DNA of 21,136 bases from a virus. The position numbers were made by a program, and so were the translations under genes. The stretch's first letter is position 1. Every line of letters begins with the position of its first letter. Below the pieces are notes generated by a model. The model was not told the origin of the DNA and made no database searches. It saw only the letters and a program-made list of their open reading frames with translations. Location of the stretch: the IMG/VR virus record IMGVR_UViG_3300030106_002384, positions 33,388 through 54,523 of that record; one strand, given 5' to 3'. This document shows, in pieces, positions 16,839 through 21,059 of this stretch.

Positions 16839-16961
16839 TCATTAAATTAATTAAAAAAACTCTAGCAAAGTATTAACAATTCTTGTCAGCACTGAAAGTG
16901 GTTAACAACTCATTTACCTGATCTGTGTATAACCGTGTATATACGTACGTAGTGACCCCCC

Positions 16962-16979
16962 ATGCCCCCTACGGGGCAT
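16962..16979 (+). other. Hairpin 1 of the leader array
   Basis: ATGCCCC (16962–16968) pairs with GGGGCAT (16973–16979) around a CTAC loop, a GC-rich 7-bp stem. No T-run follows in either direction. It opens a run of adjacent hairpins. Confidence 0.7.
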
Positions 16980-16991
16980 ACCCTCTCAAAG

Positions 16992-17029
16992 TTAGCCGAA
17001 GGCTAAAATGTTAGCATCGAAGATGCTAA
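16992..17029 (+). other. Hairpins 2 and 3 of the leader array (twin GAA-loop hairpins)
   Basis: TTAGCC-GAA-GGCTAA (16992–17006) and TTAGCATC-GAA-GATGCTAA (17011–17029) are perfect stems of 6 and 8 bp. Both begin TTAGC, end GCTAA and share the loop GAA. They are four bases apart and look like related elements. Confidence 0.75.
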
Positions 17030-17033
17030 ATAT

Positions 17034-17056
17034 TTGAAAATGTGTAACATTTTCAA
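17034..17056 (+). other. Hairpin 4 of the leader array
   Basis: TTGAAAATGT (17034–17043) pairs perfectly over 10 bp with ACATTTTCAA (17047–17056) around the three-base loop GTA. It begins four bases after hairpin 3. Confidence 0.75.
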
Positions 17057-17060
17057 GGTT

Positions 17061-17102
17061 GTTATTTATTACCCTTTCACTTGTGAAAGGGAAATAAATA
17101 AC
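17061..17102 (+). other. Hairpin 5 of the leader array (long)
   Basis: GTTATTTATT (17061–17070) pairs with AATAAATAAC (17093–17102). After one A·A mismatch, CCCTTTCAC (17072–17080) pairs with GTGAAAGGG (17083–17091). This gives 19 base pairs in 42 bases, the longest stem in the window outside the R repeats. It starts four bases after hairpin 4. Confidence 0.8.
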
Positions 17103-17120
17103 AATACAGCATTTTGCATC

Positions 17121-17218: not shown

Positions 17219-17271
17219 CTATAATATCTTTTTGCAAGTGAGTTCTTACGAACTGCAAAAAGAGATTATAG
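17219..17271 (+). repeat. Hairpin cassette R1 (subtype A, variant stem)
   Basis: Outer arms CTATAAT/ATTATAG and a stem CTTTTTGC/GCAAAAAG flank a five-base bulge AAGTG and the shared tip AGTTC-TTAC-GAACT. Compared with R2, the stem C to T change is matched by G to A on the other arm. Its end is 35 bases before ATG 17307. The spacer has ACCAACCAACCAAA before the ribosome binding site. Confidence 0.85.
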
Positions 17272-17306
17272 AGAATATAAACCAACCAACCAAATGGAGA
17301 ACAACC

Positions 17307-17471
17307 ATGGAGAATATATATCCTTTCTCAGTTAAAGAAGTACCTTACACTGAAGATAAAAATGCTTTTGTGATAATGTTCTATGATCAAGAAGTAGATC
17401 CTATGTCTGGAGTGTTTGAAACCAGGGAGGATGCTTTGGATCAAATTTCCATTCTGGAAATGGCGATCTAA
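17307..17471 (+). CDS. Small acidic early protein (54 aa)
   Basis: ATG 17307 follows GGAGAACAACC, the binding-site pattern of this gene cluster. The frame is open upstream to 17034, but that extension reads through the hairpin array and R1 and is rejected. The 54-aa acidic product begins MENIYPFSVKEVPYTEDKNA and has a FVIMFYDQEVDP strand and an FETREDALDQISILEMAI helix. This resembles a small alpha/beta fold of unknown function. It is the first gene of the rightward cluster. Confidence 0.75.
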   Translation: MENIYPFSVKEVPYTEDKNAFVIMFYDQEVDPMSGVFETREDALDQISILEMAI

Positions 17472-17480
17472 ATCACAAAC

Positions 17481-17531
17481 CTATATATACTCTTTGCAGT
17501 GAGTTCTTACGAACTGCAAAGAGATATATAG
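17481..17531 (+). repeat. Hairpin cassette R2 (subtype A)
   Basis: Arms CTATATAT/ATATATAG (with one bulged A) and CTCTTTGC/GCAAAGAG enclose the bulge AGTG and the tip AGTTC-TTAC-GAACT. The 51 bases are identical to R4. It ends 37 bases before ATG 17569. Confidence 0.9.
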
Positions 17532-17568
17532 ATAAAATAAAAATCAACCAACTAACTGGAGAATAACT

Positions 17569-17700
17569 ATGAATATATCTCAAGAAAAGAAACTACTAAA
17601 GCTGTTCCATGTCTCTAAAATGATTAGAGAGAAAGAGGAGAGAGAAGCTCAAAAGATGTACGAATGGTGTGTCGAGAATGACTGTTTGGGAGATGATTAA
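17569..17700 (+). CDS. Small helical early protein (43 aa)
   Basis: ATG 17569 follows CTGGAGAATAACT. The 43-aa product, MNISQEKKLLKLFHVSKMIR followed by a Glu/Arg-rich helix and an end of CVENDCLGDD, is highly charged and probably a single helix pair. It lies alone between R2 and R3, so it forms its own module. No family was recognised. A DNA-mimic or host-takeover peptide is possible given size and position, but this is inference only. Confidence 0.65.
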   Translation: MNISQEKKLLKLFHVSKMIREKEEREAQKMYEWCVENDCLGDD

Positions 17701-17708
17701 ACACAAAC

Positions 17709-17757
17709 CTATATATCTCTTTGCAGTGAGTTCTTACGAACTGCAAAGAGTATATAG
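17709..17757 (+). repeat. Hairpin cassette R3 (subtype B)
   Basis: Arms CTATATA/TATATAG with a bulged T, and CTCTTTGC/GCAAAGAG, enclose the AGTG bulge and AGTTC-TTAC-GAACT tip. With flanks, 17699–17764 is identical over 66 bases to 18937–19002 (R5). It ends 14 bases before ATG 17772, with no CCAA-rich spacer. Confidence 0.9.
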
Positions 17758-17771
17758 AGAAAGGGCAACTG

Positions 17772-17867
17772 ATGGCTAACCTATTGATCGGCATGTATTT
17801 TTCCATAGCACTACCATTTACGTTCTGGATTTTTATTATTACTTTGAACCTTTTTACAGGAGTTTAA
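17772..17867 (+). CDS. Single-helix membrane micropeptide (31 aa)
   Basis: ATG 17772 opens a 31-codon frame: MANLLIGMYFSIALPF, then TFWIFIITLNLFTGV. It is almost wholly hydrophobic and would form one TM helix. AAAGGG lies upstream within the R3 flank. Its 3′ end contains the ACAGGAG binding site of the 120-aa gene that starts two bases after its stop, so translation of the two is linked. Small phage membrane peptides can depolarise membranes or inhibit host proteins; the role here is unknown. Confidence 0.6.
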   Translation: MANLLIGMYFSIALPFTFWIFIITLNLFTGV

Positions 17868-17869
17868 TT

Positions 17870-18232
17870 ATGCAGCCTAAATTTTGTTTAGTAGCAATCA
17901 CTGGCGATAAATCAGCAGATGGTATGAGTGACACAAATACCGTGTACTTGTTTGATGATAAACATCTTGATCATGTTCATGAATTCTTAAAAGCACAATT
18001 AGAGTATGAAGTGTTTATGGCAACATACAAAATACCATGTGAAACAGAAAGTGATGTAAAAAAGTATGATCAAGTTTGGGAAAATCGCTTTAATACTTTT
18101 GATAAACTAGAAGAAGTAGGTATTTTTAAGGATAAATGGGATTTTAGAACTACATGGAATTTTGCTTTGTATGATGAAATATCTTGCAACAAGGCATACA
18201 AACCTTGGAAACTGGTGATCACTTCCGAATAA
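17870..18232 (+). CDS. Early protein of unknown function (120 aa)
   Basis: The 120-aa acidic soluble protein starts MQPKFCLVAITGDKSADGMS and continues with TVYLFDDKHLDHVHEFLKAQ. The C-terminal part is rich in aromatic residues (KWDFRTTWNFALYDEI). It has an alpha/beta pattern and no recognised motif. Its ribosome binding site lies in the tail of the 31-aa membrane peptide gene. The next element, R4, begins eight bases after its stop. Confidence 0.7.
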   Translation: MQPKFCLVAITGDKSADGMSDTNTVYLFDDKHLDHVHEFLKAQLEYEVFMATYKIPCETESDVKKYDQVWENRFNTFDKLEEVGIFKDKWDFRTTWNFALYDEISCNKAYKPWKLVITSE

Positions 18233-18240
18233 ACCAAAAC

Positions 18241-18291
18241 CTATATATACTCTTTGCAGTGAGTTCTTACGAACTGCAAAGAGATATATAG
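18241..18291 (+). repeat. Hairpin cassette R4 (subtype A)
   Basis: The 51 bases are identical to R2 and end 37 bases before ATG 18329, the same spacing as R2 to its gene. The spacer ACCAACCAACCAAA is nearly identical to that of R1. Confidence 0.9.
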
Positions 18292-18328
18292 ATAAAACAT
18301 AAACCAACCAACCAAAAGGAGAACAAAC

Positions 18329-18937
18329 ATGGCTCATGCATCACAAGAACTTAAGAAAAAATTAACCCCTGAAATTAATAGAGTATTATCTAAGTATGGG
18401 ATGAAAGGCACTATATCTGTTAGAAATCGAATGACGTTAGTGGTGACTGTAAGATCTGGTTTTATGATGTTTGATCAAACATTTGTAAATACCTGTCACA
18501 TAGATAAATTCTATGAAGGTGTGCAAAAAGAATTTTTACTAGAGTTAAAACTTGCTATGGAAGGGCCAAACTTTTTTAACCACGATGACGCTTCGACAGA
18601 TTACTTTAATAGATCTCACTACATAGACATAAAAATAGGAACATGGGAGAAGCCGTATGTAATTATAAAACCAAAAGAAATAAAAGTTAAAAGTAAATGG
18701 ATACAATCAATCAACGCTAAAATGAAGGAGACTAAAATGGCTACTAATAAAAGAACTTGGCAACATTTTATCAATGGCGAATGGGTCAATATCCCCAATG
18801 ATAGAACTACTTTTAAGACGGTATCACAGAGTGATCCGATCAGAGTGGTACATCCTAATGGATCTTGGTTTGTTACTCATAACAAAGATAAAGCTAAGCA
18901 GTTTAATCTTGAACTGAGTGCCAGATCCGCAAAATAA
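18329..18937 (+). CDS. Two-part early protein, possible fused or nested gene (202 aa)
   Basis: The N-terminal ~110 residues (ELKKKLTPEINRVLSKYGMK, then GTISVRNRMTLVVTVRSG) resemble a small conserved phage domain of unknown function with 'KYGxKGxxSVRxxxTLVxxxxSG'. The C-terminal 66 residues begin MATNKRTWQHFINGEWVNIP and form a separate-looking unit with IRVVHPNGSWFVTHNKDKAK. The codons just before that Met read AAGGAGACTAAAATG, the same signal used by real starts in this cluster, so 18737–18937 may also be made as a separate 66-aa protein. It is flanked by R4 and R5. Confidence 0.75.
   Translation: MAHASQELKKKLTPEINRVLSKYGMKGTISVRNRMTLVVTVRSGFMMFDQTFVNTCHIDKFYEGVQKEFLLELKLAMEGPNFFNHDDASTDYFNRSHYIDIKIGTWEKPYVIIKPKEIKVKSKWIQSINAKMKETKMATNKRTWQHFINGEWVNIPNDRTTFKTVSQSDPIRVVHPNGSWFVTHNKDKAKQFNLELSARSAK
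18737..18937 (+). CDS. Possible nested in-frame product (66 aa)
   Basis: ATG 18737 is in frame with the 202-aa gene and is preceded by AAGGAGACTAAA, matching the signals before 19705, 20096, 20349 and 21096. It would yield the C-terminal 66 residues alone (starting MATNKRTWQHFING). Either it is an internal start, or two once-separate genes fused in frame. It could also be a coincidence of codon use. Confidence 0.4.
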   Translation: MATNKRTWQHFINGEWVNIPNDRTTFKTVSQSDPIRVVHPNGSWFVTHNKDKAKQFNLELSARSAK

Positions 18938-18946
18938 AACACAAAC

Positions 18947-18995
18947 CTATATATCTCTTTGCAGTGAGTTCTTACGAACTGCAAAGAGTATATAG
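18947..18995 (+). repeat. Hairpin cassette R5 (subtype B)
   Basis: It is identical in its 49-base core to R3, and in 66 bases including flanks. It ends 15 bases before ATG 19011, the same short spacing as R3 to its gene. Confidence 0.9.
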
Positions 18996-19010
18996 AGAAA
19001 GGAAAATTCA

Positions 19011-19703
19011 ATGGTTCATACTTCCACGATGTCAGGTAAACTTGAGTTGTTCAAGTCTATCAGTACCAATACAGTAGTTAACTACTTCTGTTTTGATAGG
19101 TACAATAAAGCAAAGGTTAAGAATAAAAAGGCAGGTAAAGTAGTCGATATCTGTGGTATATGTTACAGTCAAATTATGCTTAGTTCATATAGAAAGAATG
19201 TGCAACCGGCATTGGATCGGAACGAAGAACTAGCAGAAAGGTTACTAGACAAAGAAGAACTACCTACTTACTTGGATGCTTTCCTTAGAATAGATGCTCA
19301 TGGTGAGCTACTTACTCACAAGGTTGATCCAAGCACTGGTAAAGTTATCAAGACTTTTCCTAAGTATAATCACATAGAAAATCTATGTAGAATTGCTGAA
19401 CATAATCCACATTGTAACTTTGCCTTGTGGACTAAACGAACAGAGATAGTTAAACCTTTCTTTAACAAACGTACTAAACCTGCCAACTTGATCTTGATAT
19501 ATTCTAATCCAAAGGTTAGTACAATCTTGACTTCACCACCTACTCACTTTGATAGAACATTTAATAATGTCTTAGAGGATGAGTTTGTAGATCAGCAAAA
19601 TTGTACTGGTCAAAAATGTAAAGATTGCTTGCTATGTTATACCAAAGATAATGGTGTGACTACCATAGTGGAGAAGGCAAAGTTTTATGTAAAGGAGAAT
19701 TAA
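19011..19703 (+). CDS. GP88-like cysteine-rich phage protein (230 aa)
   Basis: Motifs in order resemble the phage 'gene product 88' family: an N-terminal CxxC (C48, C51; VVDICGICYSQIM), then FLRIDAHGEL (R93, D95, H97), then HNPHCNFALWTKR, and a C-terminal C198-x4-C203-x2-C206-x2-C209 cluster (NCTGQKCKDCLLCY). The last cluster could hold zinc or an iron–sulphur centre. The family's biochemical role is not known to me. AAAGGA precedes ATG 19011. The stop overlaps the signal for the MORN-repeat gene, which starts two bases later, so they are co-translated after R5. Confidence 0.65.
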   Translation: MVHTSTMSGKLELFKSISTNTVVNYFCFDRYNKAKVKNKKAGKVVDICGICYSQIMLSSYRKNVQPALDRNEELAERLLDKEELPTYLDAFLRIDAHGELLTHKVDPSTGKVIKTFPKYNHIENLCRIAEHNPHCNFALWTKRTEIVKPFFNKRTKPANLILIYSNPKVSTILTSPPTHFDRTFNNVLEDEFVDQQNCTGQKCKDCLLCYTKDNGVTTIVEKAKFYVKEN

Positions 19704-19704
19704 A

Positions 19705-20094
19705 ATGACTGAGGAATTTGAATTTTACCACGACAACGGTCAGCTATCTGAAAAGGGTAACTACAAGAACGGTAAACAAGAAGGAAGATGGTTCTATTAC
19801 TACGACAACGGTCAGTTAAGTGCAAAGGGTGACTACAGGAACGGTAAGAAAGAAGAAACGTGGGTCCATTACTACTCAAACGGTCAGTTATGGGACAAGG
19901 GTAACTTCAAAAACGGTAAGTATGAAGGAACGTGGGTCACTTACTATAGAGACGGTCAGTTAATGATGAAGGGTAACTTCACAAATGGTTATCGAGAGGG
20001 AATGTGGGTCGAATACCACTGGGATGGTTCAAAGGATACCCGTTGGTCGGGTGTTTACAGTAAATATAAGAAAGTTTATGTAGAGGAGAACTAA
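19705..20094 (+). CDS. MORN_2/YwqK-like repeat protein (129 aa)
   Basis: The product is almost entirely four 24-residue repeats from residue 3, each close to F-Y-x-D/N-G-Q-L-x-x-K-G-N/D-Y/F-x-N-G-K-x-E-G-x-W, plus a diverged fifth. This is the MORN variant 2 pattern of YwqK-type proteins, a family with members annotated as antitoxins and others of unknown role. The repeats are also visible in DNA with a 72-bp period. AAGGAGAATTAAAATG gives a strong start. It is coupled to the GP88-like gene before it and the 54-aa gene after it. Protein binding is the likely role, inferred from the repeats. Confidence 0.8.
   Translation: MTEEFEFYHDNGQLSEKGNYKNGKQEGRWFYYYDNGQLSAKGDYRNGKKEETWVHYYSNGQLWDKGNFKNGKYEGTWVTYYRDGQLMMKGNFTNGYREGMWVEYHWDGSKDTRWSGVYSKYKKVYVEEN
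19711..19998 (+). repeat. Four 72-bp tandem repeats in the MORN-like gene
   Basis: The period is exactly 72 bp: the AACGGTCAG or GACGGTCAG core recurs at about 19735, 19807, 19879 and 19951. The copies are diverged but clearly related, and each encodes one 24-residue MORN_2-type unit. Confidence 0.8.
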
Positions 20095-20095
20095 A

Positions 20096-20260
20096 ATGTT
20101 TATAGAAGTAACCAAAGATAGAGTGTATGGGAATGTTTTACACTACCCTGTTTGTCAAAAGGCAAAGTTATTTGCGAGGATTGCAGGATCAAAAACTTTA
20201 ACAGAGCATACGATGAATTTGATTAAGGAGATGGGATACGAAATACGACTAGTTATTTGA
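20096..20260 (+). CDS. Small early protein (54 aa)
   Basis: ATG 20096 follows GAGGAGAACTAAA. The 54-aa product starts MFIEVTKDRVYGNVLHYPVC, then QKAKLFARIAGSKTLTEHTM, and ends YEIRLVI, a compact beta–alpha–beta-like chain. Members with 'V-x-P-x-C-xxA-xxFAxIAG-xKTLT' are found in various phages, to my recollection, without a known function. It is the last gene before R6, in the module begun by the GP88-like gene. Confidence 0.7.
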   Translation: MFIEVTKDRVYGNVLHYPVCQKAKLFARIAGSKTLTEHTMNLIKEMGYEIRLVI

Positions 20261-20263
20261 ACC

Positions 20264-20313
20264 CTATATATACCTGTGTAGTAAGTTCTTACGAACTACA
20301 CAGGGATATATAG
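20264..20313 (+). repeat. Hairpin cassette R6 (subtype A, fully exchanged stem)
   Basis: Arms CTATATAT/ATATATAG are kept, but the middle stem is CCTGTGT/ACACAGG instead of CTCTTTGC/GCAAAGAG. The bulge is AGTA and the tip AGTTC-TTAC-GAACT is unchanged. Exchange of both stem arms while pairing is retained is strong evidence that the structure is selected. It ends 35 bases before ATG 20349. Confidence 0.88.
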
Positions 20314-20348: not shown

Positions 20349-20534
20349 ATGACATTGGAAGAGGCACGAAAAATAGTAGGCAATACACCTACGTATGCAC
20401 TTAGAAACATGGTAAAGGCACTTAAGCTACATCAATGGTTAAATACTGAAGACGATTGGAAGCGATTGAAAGCCGCCCAATTAATATTAAGGAAGAAGGA
20501 ACATTCCGCACCATTAATATTGAGGAGCAAGTGA
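20349..20534 (+). CDS. Small conserved-type early protein (61 aa)
   Basis: ATG 20349 follows AAGGAGAACTAAA. The 61-aa basic helical protein contains NTPTYALRNMVKALKLHQWL followed by NTEDDWKRLKAAQLILR. This pattern (ALRNMVKAL–xxWLNTxEDxxRLxAAxxxLR) I associate with small uncharacterised proteins in many phages. It ends one base before the next start (TGAcATG), so translation is coupled. Confidence 0.72.
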   Translation: MTLEEARKIVGNTPTYALRNMVKALKLHQWLNTEDDWKRLKAAQLILRKKEHSAPLILRSK

Positions 20535-20535
20535 C

Positions 20536-20832
20536 ATGTCAAAGACAGAATTTCCCTTCATAGTTTTGACTGATACACATGATCAGTCACCAAAAAGTAT
20601 GTCAGCTTTTACAGTACATAGTGTAAAAGATTTTTTAGATTTTGCACAGGAAGAGGCAGACTGGAGCTACATAGTATACAATGAAACTAAACTTGAGGAG
20701 AGTTTCGGTTCCCTTGAAGATTGCCAAGATGAAGTAGTTAATGGCTATGATTGTTATGGCCTTATATTGACGATCATTATGGCCTTGAGGCATGGCAAGT
20801 TTTGTATAGCTCGCCATCTAAAAGAATGGTAG
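20536..20832 (+). CDS. Early protein, probably the front part of a frameshifted gene (98 aa as read)
   Basis: ATG 20536 follows GAGGAGCAAGTGAC. The first ~75 residues (FPFIVLTDTHDQ, DFLDFAQEEADWSYIVYNET) look like a normal acidic protein. After about 20756 the frame yields a less protein-like tail (LILTIIMALRHGKF) and stops at 20832. In the −1 frame, however, a coherent sequence (YIDDHYGLEAWQVLY) continues to 21059. One extra C in GGCCT near 20760 would give a single 174-aa protein. Alternatives are a programmed −1 shift or two overlapping genes. Confidence 0.6.
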   Translation: MSKTEFPFIVLTDTHDQSPKSMSAFTVHSVKDFLDFAQEEADWSYIVYNETKLEESFGSLEDCQDEVVNGYDCYGLILTIIMALRHGKFCIARHLKEW

Positions 20833-21059
20833 AAATTTCCACTGAGCATCACCATGAGTATTATACTTATGAGAATGCACCAAATATTCTTGATGCGGCT
20901 ATGGACTATATGCAGAGTGAGGAGGACTGCCAGTATTTCTCCACAGATGACACAGTAGAAATGTTTTCAGCAACGTCTTTACACCATGAATGGAGGGCTG
21001 AAAAATTAATTAACCAACAATTAGATGCAATCAAGGTACTTTATGCACCATTTAATTAA
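20826..21059 (+). CDS. Second part of the frameshifted gene or separate overlapping gene (77 aa from ATG)
   Basis: The reading frame is open from just after a TGA at 20748 to TAA 21059. Its first ATG is at 20826, inside ATGGTAG, overlapping the stop of the preceding frame by seven bases. The protein is acidic (VEISTEHHHEYYTYEN, then AAMDYMQSEEDCQYFS) and resembles the preceding part in composition. No ribosome binding site precedes ATG 20826, and protein-like sequence extends upstream of it, so it is more likely the C-terminal half of one gene. Confidence 0.5.
   Translation: MVEISTEHHHEYYTYENAPNILDAAMDYMQSEEDCQYFSTDDTVEMFSATSLHHEWRAEKLINQQLDAIKVLYAPFN

Follow-up and report, generated by a model that had tools for sequence, protein, structure and literature searches.

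What are the six inverted repeats (R1-R6) that stand at the heads of the early gene groups of a virus, and what might read them? They lie in a stretch of 21,136 nucleotides (hereafter the window), i.e., bases 33,388-54,523 of a virus record of 54,523 bases (IMGVR_UViG_3300030106_002384). The large terminase has about 73% identity to those of Roseobacter phage CRP-1 and Puniceispirillum phage HMO-2011; the source is therefore an HMO-2011-type podophage. The GP88 and MORN repeat families are present among its early proteins, and its leftward operon has a perfect sigma-70-like site.

Six hairpins at the heads of early gene groups

R1-R6 form one hairpin each, of 49-53 nt (Table 1). The sequence AGTTCTTACGAACT is found six times without mismatch on the + strand of the window. 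With up to 2 mismatches and on both strands, 12 matches are obtained vs. 0.26 expected, and none of 100 shuffles reaches 12. In the whole record, AGTRAGTTCTTACGAACT occurs 6 times forward, 0 times reverse and 0 times in the backwards control. R1-R6 are confirmed as genuine, far above chance.

The sequence-only reading had described these six copies at the same positions. All six were found there on the + strand, and the rest of the record contains no further copy. Its middle-stem sequences were also correct, i.e., CTCTTTGC/GCAAAGAG, CTTTTTGC/GCAAAAAG and CCTGTGT/ACACAGG, both arms being altered jointly from one variant to the other. As it had noted, the copies precede gene groups, and the closely packed genes within a group have none between them.

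Table 1. Hairpins R1-R6 and the open reading frames (ORFs) that follow each of them; positions refer to the window.
Feature	Positions	Strand	Remarks
R1 hairpin	17219-17271	+	loop GAGTTCTTACGA; 19 bp stem, bulged A beside AGT; covariance-model E 1.1e-5
First early ORF, 54 aa, after R1	17307..17471	+	from sequence
R2 hairpin	17481-17531	+	loop GAGTTCTTACGA; 19 bp stem; covariance-model E 4.1e-8
ORF, 43 aa, after R2	17569..17700	+	
R3 hairpin	17709-17757	+	loop GAGTTCTTACGA; 18 bp stem; covariance-model E 1.4e-8
Two coupled ORFs after R3	17772..18232	+	31 aa, then 17870-18232 (120 aa)
R4 hairpin	18241-18291	+	stem identical to R2; covariance-model E 4.1e-8
ORF, 202 aa, after R4	18329..18937	+	
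R5 hairpin	18947-18995	+	stem identical to R3; covariance-model E 1.4e-8
Three coupled ORFs after R5	19011..20260	+	19011-19703, 19705-20094, 20096-20260
R6 hairpin	20264-20313	+	loop AAGTTCTTACGA; unrelated stem CCTGTGT/ACACAGG; covariance-model E 1.9e-9
Coupled ORFs after R6	20349..21059	+	

The covariance-model search that the sequence-only reading had proposed finds the element in 23 of 25 records, with 63 copies in all (E <= 1.1e-4). Against Rfam 15, the window has 0 matches at the gathering score and only sub-threshold chance matches (E up to 5); the matches of eight other carriers are likewise sub-threshold and due to chance. A literature search on the loop sequence and on HMO-2011 hairpins returned nothing relevant. 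R1-R6 belong to a hairpin family of marine phage early operons that had not been listed before. The family is new as an object; as a kind, i.e., a phage hairpin in a leader or between cistrons, it has functional relatives.

A conserved apical module on a free stem

The exact core AGTRAGTTCTTACGAACT matched 97 contig stretches of IMG/VR. Among the 60 distinct exact-core viral matches, 54 have at least 8 of the 12 flanking positions paired, with unrelated stem sequences. In 84,980 GTDB genomes the exact core is found in 7 places, all of them stemless (no more than 6 of 12 positions paired). These cellular matches are chance copies without stem and serve as an internal control for the viral copies. 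When core positions 6/13 or 7/12 are altered, 20 viral loci are matched and none has a stem. The set was enlarged by further scans for the stem and for loop variants. The stem-supported element is found in 157 of the IMG/VR stretches examined; under a stricter scan, 83 distinct stems are obtained, and 89 hairpins have the RA...GA frame vs. 8-17 for decoy frames. Among phages, the tip is fixed while the stem, of 12-26 bp, varies completely, both arms changing jointly (the stem chain is mostly 12-27 bp long).

The fold was deduced from an ungapped alignment of 45 diverse copies. Core position 1 covaries with position 18 (A-U in 29 copies, U-A in 10, G-C in 4 and C-G in 2) and position 2 with position 17; AGT therefore pairs with ACT. 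The sequence-only reading had drawn an AGTR bulge below an AGTTC/GAACT tip. In that fold, 16 of the 45 sequences fail to form pair 16-29, whereas its substitute in the continuous stem is intact in 45/45, and the tip helix shows a both-sided change in one pair only. The continuous stem with two loop pairs has 89.3% of cells paired vs. 56.9% in shuffles, both-sided changes in 15 of 16 pairs, 250 compensatory cells vs. 80.6 +/- 7.3 in shuffles and a covariation score of 0.776 vs. 0.171 (at most 0.226 with the partner slid). The bulged fold is thus rejected by the covariation of the 45 sequences. The hairpin cassette at the heads of the early modules stands, but a continuous stem that ends in a structured loop of 11-13 nt takes the place of its bulged tip.

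This loop, RAGUUCU(U)ACGA, is closed by the AGT/ACT pairing. The ViennaRNA loop model consists of an R.A/A.G internal loop, a G-C/U-A mini-helix and a UCUU apex; the R.A/A.G step probably has a sheared geometry. The conserved apical module can be written R-A-(G-C)(U-A)[A-U]-UCU(U)-G-A, the sequence of the stem being free and its covariation strictly Watson-Crick. Three kinds of variants support the mini-helix of the loop: (i) G-C is swapped to C-G in GACTTCTTAGGA and GACTATCTTAGGA; (ii) the loop U-A changes to U.G on 4 distinct stems, and no C.A is seen beside an intact G-C; (iii) a paired insertion adds one pair (GU-UCU-AC / GUA-UCU-UAC). The closing pair of the ATCTT apex variant is always A-U, while that of the other variants is almost always U-A. 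A Loop E or bulged-G motif is rejected since position 2 is not invariant. A dsDNA operator (stoperator-like) is rejected as well, since long flanking arms of unrelated sequence covary.

A palindrome of mobile or selfish origin (MITE- or REP-like), inserted between genes by chance, would agree with a multicopy and sporadic element that named relatives lack. It is nevertheless very improbable: the loop is common and the stems are unrelated between phages, which is the reverse of a mobile repeat, and orientation is fixed relative to transcription. Covariation and strand constancy largely refute this origin.

Stem interruptions show no clear peak at any fixed position (i.e., no cleavage «ruler»). 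G.U represents 5 of 47 isolated stem mismatches and is no commoner than the other mismatches. That G.U is not favoured is unusual for an RNA helix and would be compatible with a DNA-level hairpin or with correction of the palindrome. The element could be a hairpin promoter or cruciform of the N4 early promoter type, read as extruded single-stranded DNA. A conserved loop on a free paired stem is the behaviour of N4 vRNAP promoters (PMC4496689), the position is immediate-early, and no sigma-70-like site was scored on the + strand between the divergence point and R1, though the leftward operon has a perfect one. However, stems of 12-26 bp and loops of 11-13 nt differ from the short N4 hairpins with their 3-base loop, and on the coding strand the loop U-A gives U.G, never C.A. 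Moreover no RNA polymerase appears among the proteins scanned: the Pfam matches of 44 early proteins contain none, the giant proteins tested have no polymerase match, and PF00940, for T7-type RNA polymerase, is silent in 23 records, in a search run without a positive control. These results weaken one of the roles listed by the sequence-only reading, a promoter for an unusual polymerase, which we consider improbable.

Carriers, position in the early operon and candidate partners

The 23 long records were sorted into groups A, B, C and G002. Group A comprises the podophages around the source window together with G007, G008, G009, G014, G019 and G020. Group B comprises G001, G003-G006, G010, G012, G017, G018 and G021, and its nearest named terminases are those of the SAR11 phages HTVC023P and HTVC027P (about 42%). 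Group C comprises G011, G016, G022 and G024, with terminases that resemble those of Flavobacterium and Cellulophaga phages. G002 has only structural genes in common with group B. Shine-Dalgarno sites are scarce in the genes of group C (0-14% vs. 36-74% elsewhere), which, together with the terminase relatives, suggests that the hosts of group C are Bacteroidota. The carriers come from three or more unrelated phage groups and probably infect at least two kinds of host bacteria.

No copy was found by direct scan in 19 named relatives (1.04 Mb), nor in named relatives with the covariance model. The direct scan is the firmer of the two, because the covariance model had zero candidates there at first look, though G000 and G016 were detected in the same run. 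Homologous phages without the element, which the sequence-only reading would have counted against itself, thus exist among the named isolates. This absence shows that the element is sporadic, not meaningless.

All copies are on one strand in 70/70 stretches with at least two copies. All the multi-copy genomes scanned are one-stranded as well, the exceptions being weak reverse echoes of palindromic copies (E above 0.6). The element is on the coding strand, in the gap that separates the stop codon of an early gene from the following start. There are 1-7 copies per genome. They cluster where the early region begins, within its first kilobases, adjoining the divergence from the late genes; some are found kilobases into the operon, e.g., before the primase-helicase gene in G010. 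For 50 copies, the median distance from the previous stop codon to the loop is 29 nt, and that from the loop to the next ATG is 37 nt where an ATG is recognised (37/50 copies); for some copies, especially in group C, no next start codon is evident. In three related phages the first element is preceded, at a distance of about 220 nt, by a promoter-like site (TTGCCA-17-TATACT), so that the hairpin would be within the transcript. Overlap of the element with a promoter is rejected: the TTGACA found upstream of the G010 and G001 elements is coding sequence (LDKL*/LDSL*) up to the stop codon.

A strong hairpin between cistrons could be an intrinsic terminator or attenuator. The longest T-run after the loop is however only 1-4 in all 50 copies examined; this function is refuted on anatomy, and its probability is close to nil. 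Taken together, the spacing to stop codon and ATG, the constant strand, the lack of a T-run and the upstream site fit a hairpin that would be carried inside a polycistronic early transcript.

In most copies the base of the hairpin is just upstream of a Shine-Dalgarno site. It is conceivable that this leader is bound by the ribosome itself or by a host protein (ribosomal or RNA-binding) and that early translation is tuned in this way. Such a translational operator seems unlikely: the element is also found in phages that hardly use Shine-Dalgarno sites (group C), which makes a pure ribosome-site switch unlikely, and E. coli rRNA contains no look-alike with fewer than 3 mismatches. Mimicry of rRNA or pairing with it is rejected (6-7-mers at chance level only). 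A trans RNA partner is rejected too, the reverse complement of the loop being absent from the carriers.

Proteins of 23 carriers and 13 named relatives were compared by clustering and HMM. No protein family specific to the carriers of groups A, B and C was found in this set. The families joining the three groups (M15 lysin, structural and minor ones) are also present in phages without the element. Since no protein family follows the element across the groups, a conserved host partner is likelier than a phage protein. Binding by a phage protein, as once proposed for these hairpins, loses ground accordingly, and a conserved host factor would be the simplest partner. No phage RNase III was found either, while the positive controls were detected; processing by RNase III would thus need the host enzyme.

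A host partner would also suit a put-like or NusG/LoaP-like antiterminator, in which the nascent hairpin would bind an elongation factor or the RNA polymerase of the host, which would then read through the early region. This is a serious rival, although we regard it as rather unlikely. The element sits at the start of the early operon, no polymerase was found in the carrier phages, and a host-universal partner (RNA polymerase, NusG, NusA) would suit carriers from two host phyla. Precedents are HK022 putRNA (PMC9378689) and the dfn hairpin bound by LoaP (PMC12691694). Serial copies, some of them far into the operon, are however unlike put, and the early region has no clear excess of terminator-like sites over shuffles (4 vs. 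1.9 +/- 1.5, most of these sites being on the opposite strand; 10 vs. 8.4).

Proposed role and comparison with known systems

Our preferred reading, held with somewhat less than even confidence, is that R1-R6 are a co-transcribed intercistronic RNA signal of the early operon, probably a processing or protection site. (i) Each hairpin would be transcribed within the polycistronic early mRNA; (ii) the apical module would be the recognition mark for a trans factor common to the hosts of quite different phages; (iii) recognition would lead to cutting and/or protection of the RNA at the hairpin, marking the boundaries of cistrons much as the early RNase III sites of T7 do, but with a loop marked by its sequence; (iv) each early module would then be freed as a stable separate mRNA with a clean 5-prime leader. 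Among the roles that the sequence-only reading had listed, RNase III-like processing, 5-prime stabilisation and put-like antitermination are still candidates. Such a boundary signal would account for the intercistronic site, the length of the stem, the multiple copies and the orientation on the coding strand. By itself it leaves the constant loop unexplained, which implies a specific reader. No requirement for a conserved loop is known for bacterial RNase III, and the conserved loop would thus imply another or an additional reader. Against processing stand the absence of any G.U excess among stem mismatches, that of a fixed position for stem interruptions, the named relatives without the element and the start codons that are not evident in some copies.

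It is possible, though doubtful, that a core bacterial machine conserved from Alphaproteobacteria to Bacteroidota can be addressed in general by RAGUUCU(U)ACGA, whatever the stem. If so, this machine would be the RNA polymerase elongation complex, an RNase or the ribosome, and unrelated marine phages would share or reinvent one loop word for the control of early operons without a phage protein. Very few cis-acting RNAs common to phages of different host phyla are known to us. The fixed apical module and the free stem make the element uncommonly well defined, and its small size allows direct testing. Should a core host factor turn out to be its partner, the element would represent a protein-free takeover of early gene expression by marine phages and a metagenome marker for such phages.

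Known systems resemble the element in part. The early RNase III sites of T7 are long double-stranded intercistronic hairpins on the coding strand, several per genome, recognised by a host enzyme. The present element likewise forms a long dsRNA hairpin, separates early cistrons and has the orientation of the genes. It differs by a conserved apical module of 11-13 nt carried on dozens of stems, the T7 sites being recognised by their stem and having no such loop, and its cleavage is hypothetical. The substrates of yeast Rnt1p, a eukaryotic RNase III, combine a free stem with an AGNN tetraloop as recognition mark; the element also combines a free stem with a conserved apical loop, but the loop itself is different.

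In N4 vRNAP promoters, the loop and some bases are conserved and the other stem bases are free if paired (PMC4496689). A fixed loop, a free paired stem and early genes are common to both; the N4 promoters are however short DNA hairpins with a 3-base loop, read by a giant virion polymerase, and no polymerase match was found here. HK022 put is an element of about 70 nt with two adjacent stem-loops, in two copies per genome, and putRNA acts on the zinc-binding domain of the RNA polymerase beta' subunit without protein (PMC9378689). Like putL and putR, the element is a cis-acting phage element near the start of the early operon with a proposed universal host partner. Unlike them, it is a single hairpin in 1-7 copies, with no similar sequence recognised. 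In the LoaP/dfn system, a small leader hairpin has a conserved tip which is the recognition mark of an elongation factor (PMC12691694). The dfn tip is of UNCG type and is found in Bacillus, once per operon, whereas the apical loop described here is UCU(U).

The intergenic region before R1 and the early genes

Upstream of R1 lies a full match (12/12) to the sigma-70 promoter consensus, TTGACA-17-TATAAT, which would be the promoter for the leftward late operon. Between this match and R1, no site on the + strand reached a comparable score. The divergent intergenic region upstream of R1 holds about five perfect or near-perfect hairpins placed back to back, i.e., GCCCC.TACGGGGC, TTAGCCGAAGGCTAA, TTAGCATCGAAGATGCTAA, TTGAAAATG..CATTTTCAA and TTGTTATTTATTACCCTTTCAC..GTGAAAGGGAAATAAATAACAA; an origin or a structured leader is possible.

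Among the early ORFs, one matches a small protein family (c80) by its C-terminal third, and this third has its own Shine-Dalgarno site and ATG. The family occurs as a free-standing protein in group B carriers, and none of the 13 named relatives that were scanned has it. The c80 part is predicted to be either a fusion or the product of an internal start. In-frame tandem repeats of 72 bp, coding for MORN-type repeats, are also found.

Coordinates of the features (window positions unless a retrieved stretch, L, is named)
Feature	Position	Strand
Sigma-70 consensus match	16838-16810	-
Hairpin run	16960-17105	
ORF with c80-matching third	18329-18937	
Shine-Dalgarno site and ATG	near 18738	
72-bp repeats	19705-20094	
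Record's end	20751-21056	
Its recurrence at record's start	L162:40-294	
G014 stem	L225:13034 (G014 near 33,034)	

Completeness of the records

The end of the 54.5-kb record recurs at its start (translations 99% identical), so its sequence is probably that of a complete genome, circularly permuted or terminally redundant. The carrier G001 (106,894 bases) is likely a tandem or chimeric assembly, since it is nearly twice the G003 genome and has many gene clusters in two copies.

Variants of the element and stem mismatches

Closing pair and loop length covary between element subtypes: with the 13-nt loop GAGTATCTTACGA (L002, L010, L018, L033, L034, L111, L318 and others) the closing pair is always A-T, not T-A. 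In the carrier G007 the element lies upstream of gene family c52; at the corresponding place in G014, a perfectly paired stem of 18 bp carries another loop, AAGTTCAGAATGAA, and is possibly a diverged or replaced element. Isolated mismatches in the stems of all copies are mainly U.U, A.G, A.A and C.U. The G.U wobble is not favoured (5/47), which is unusual for an RNA helix.
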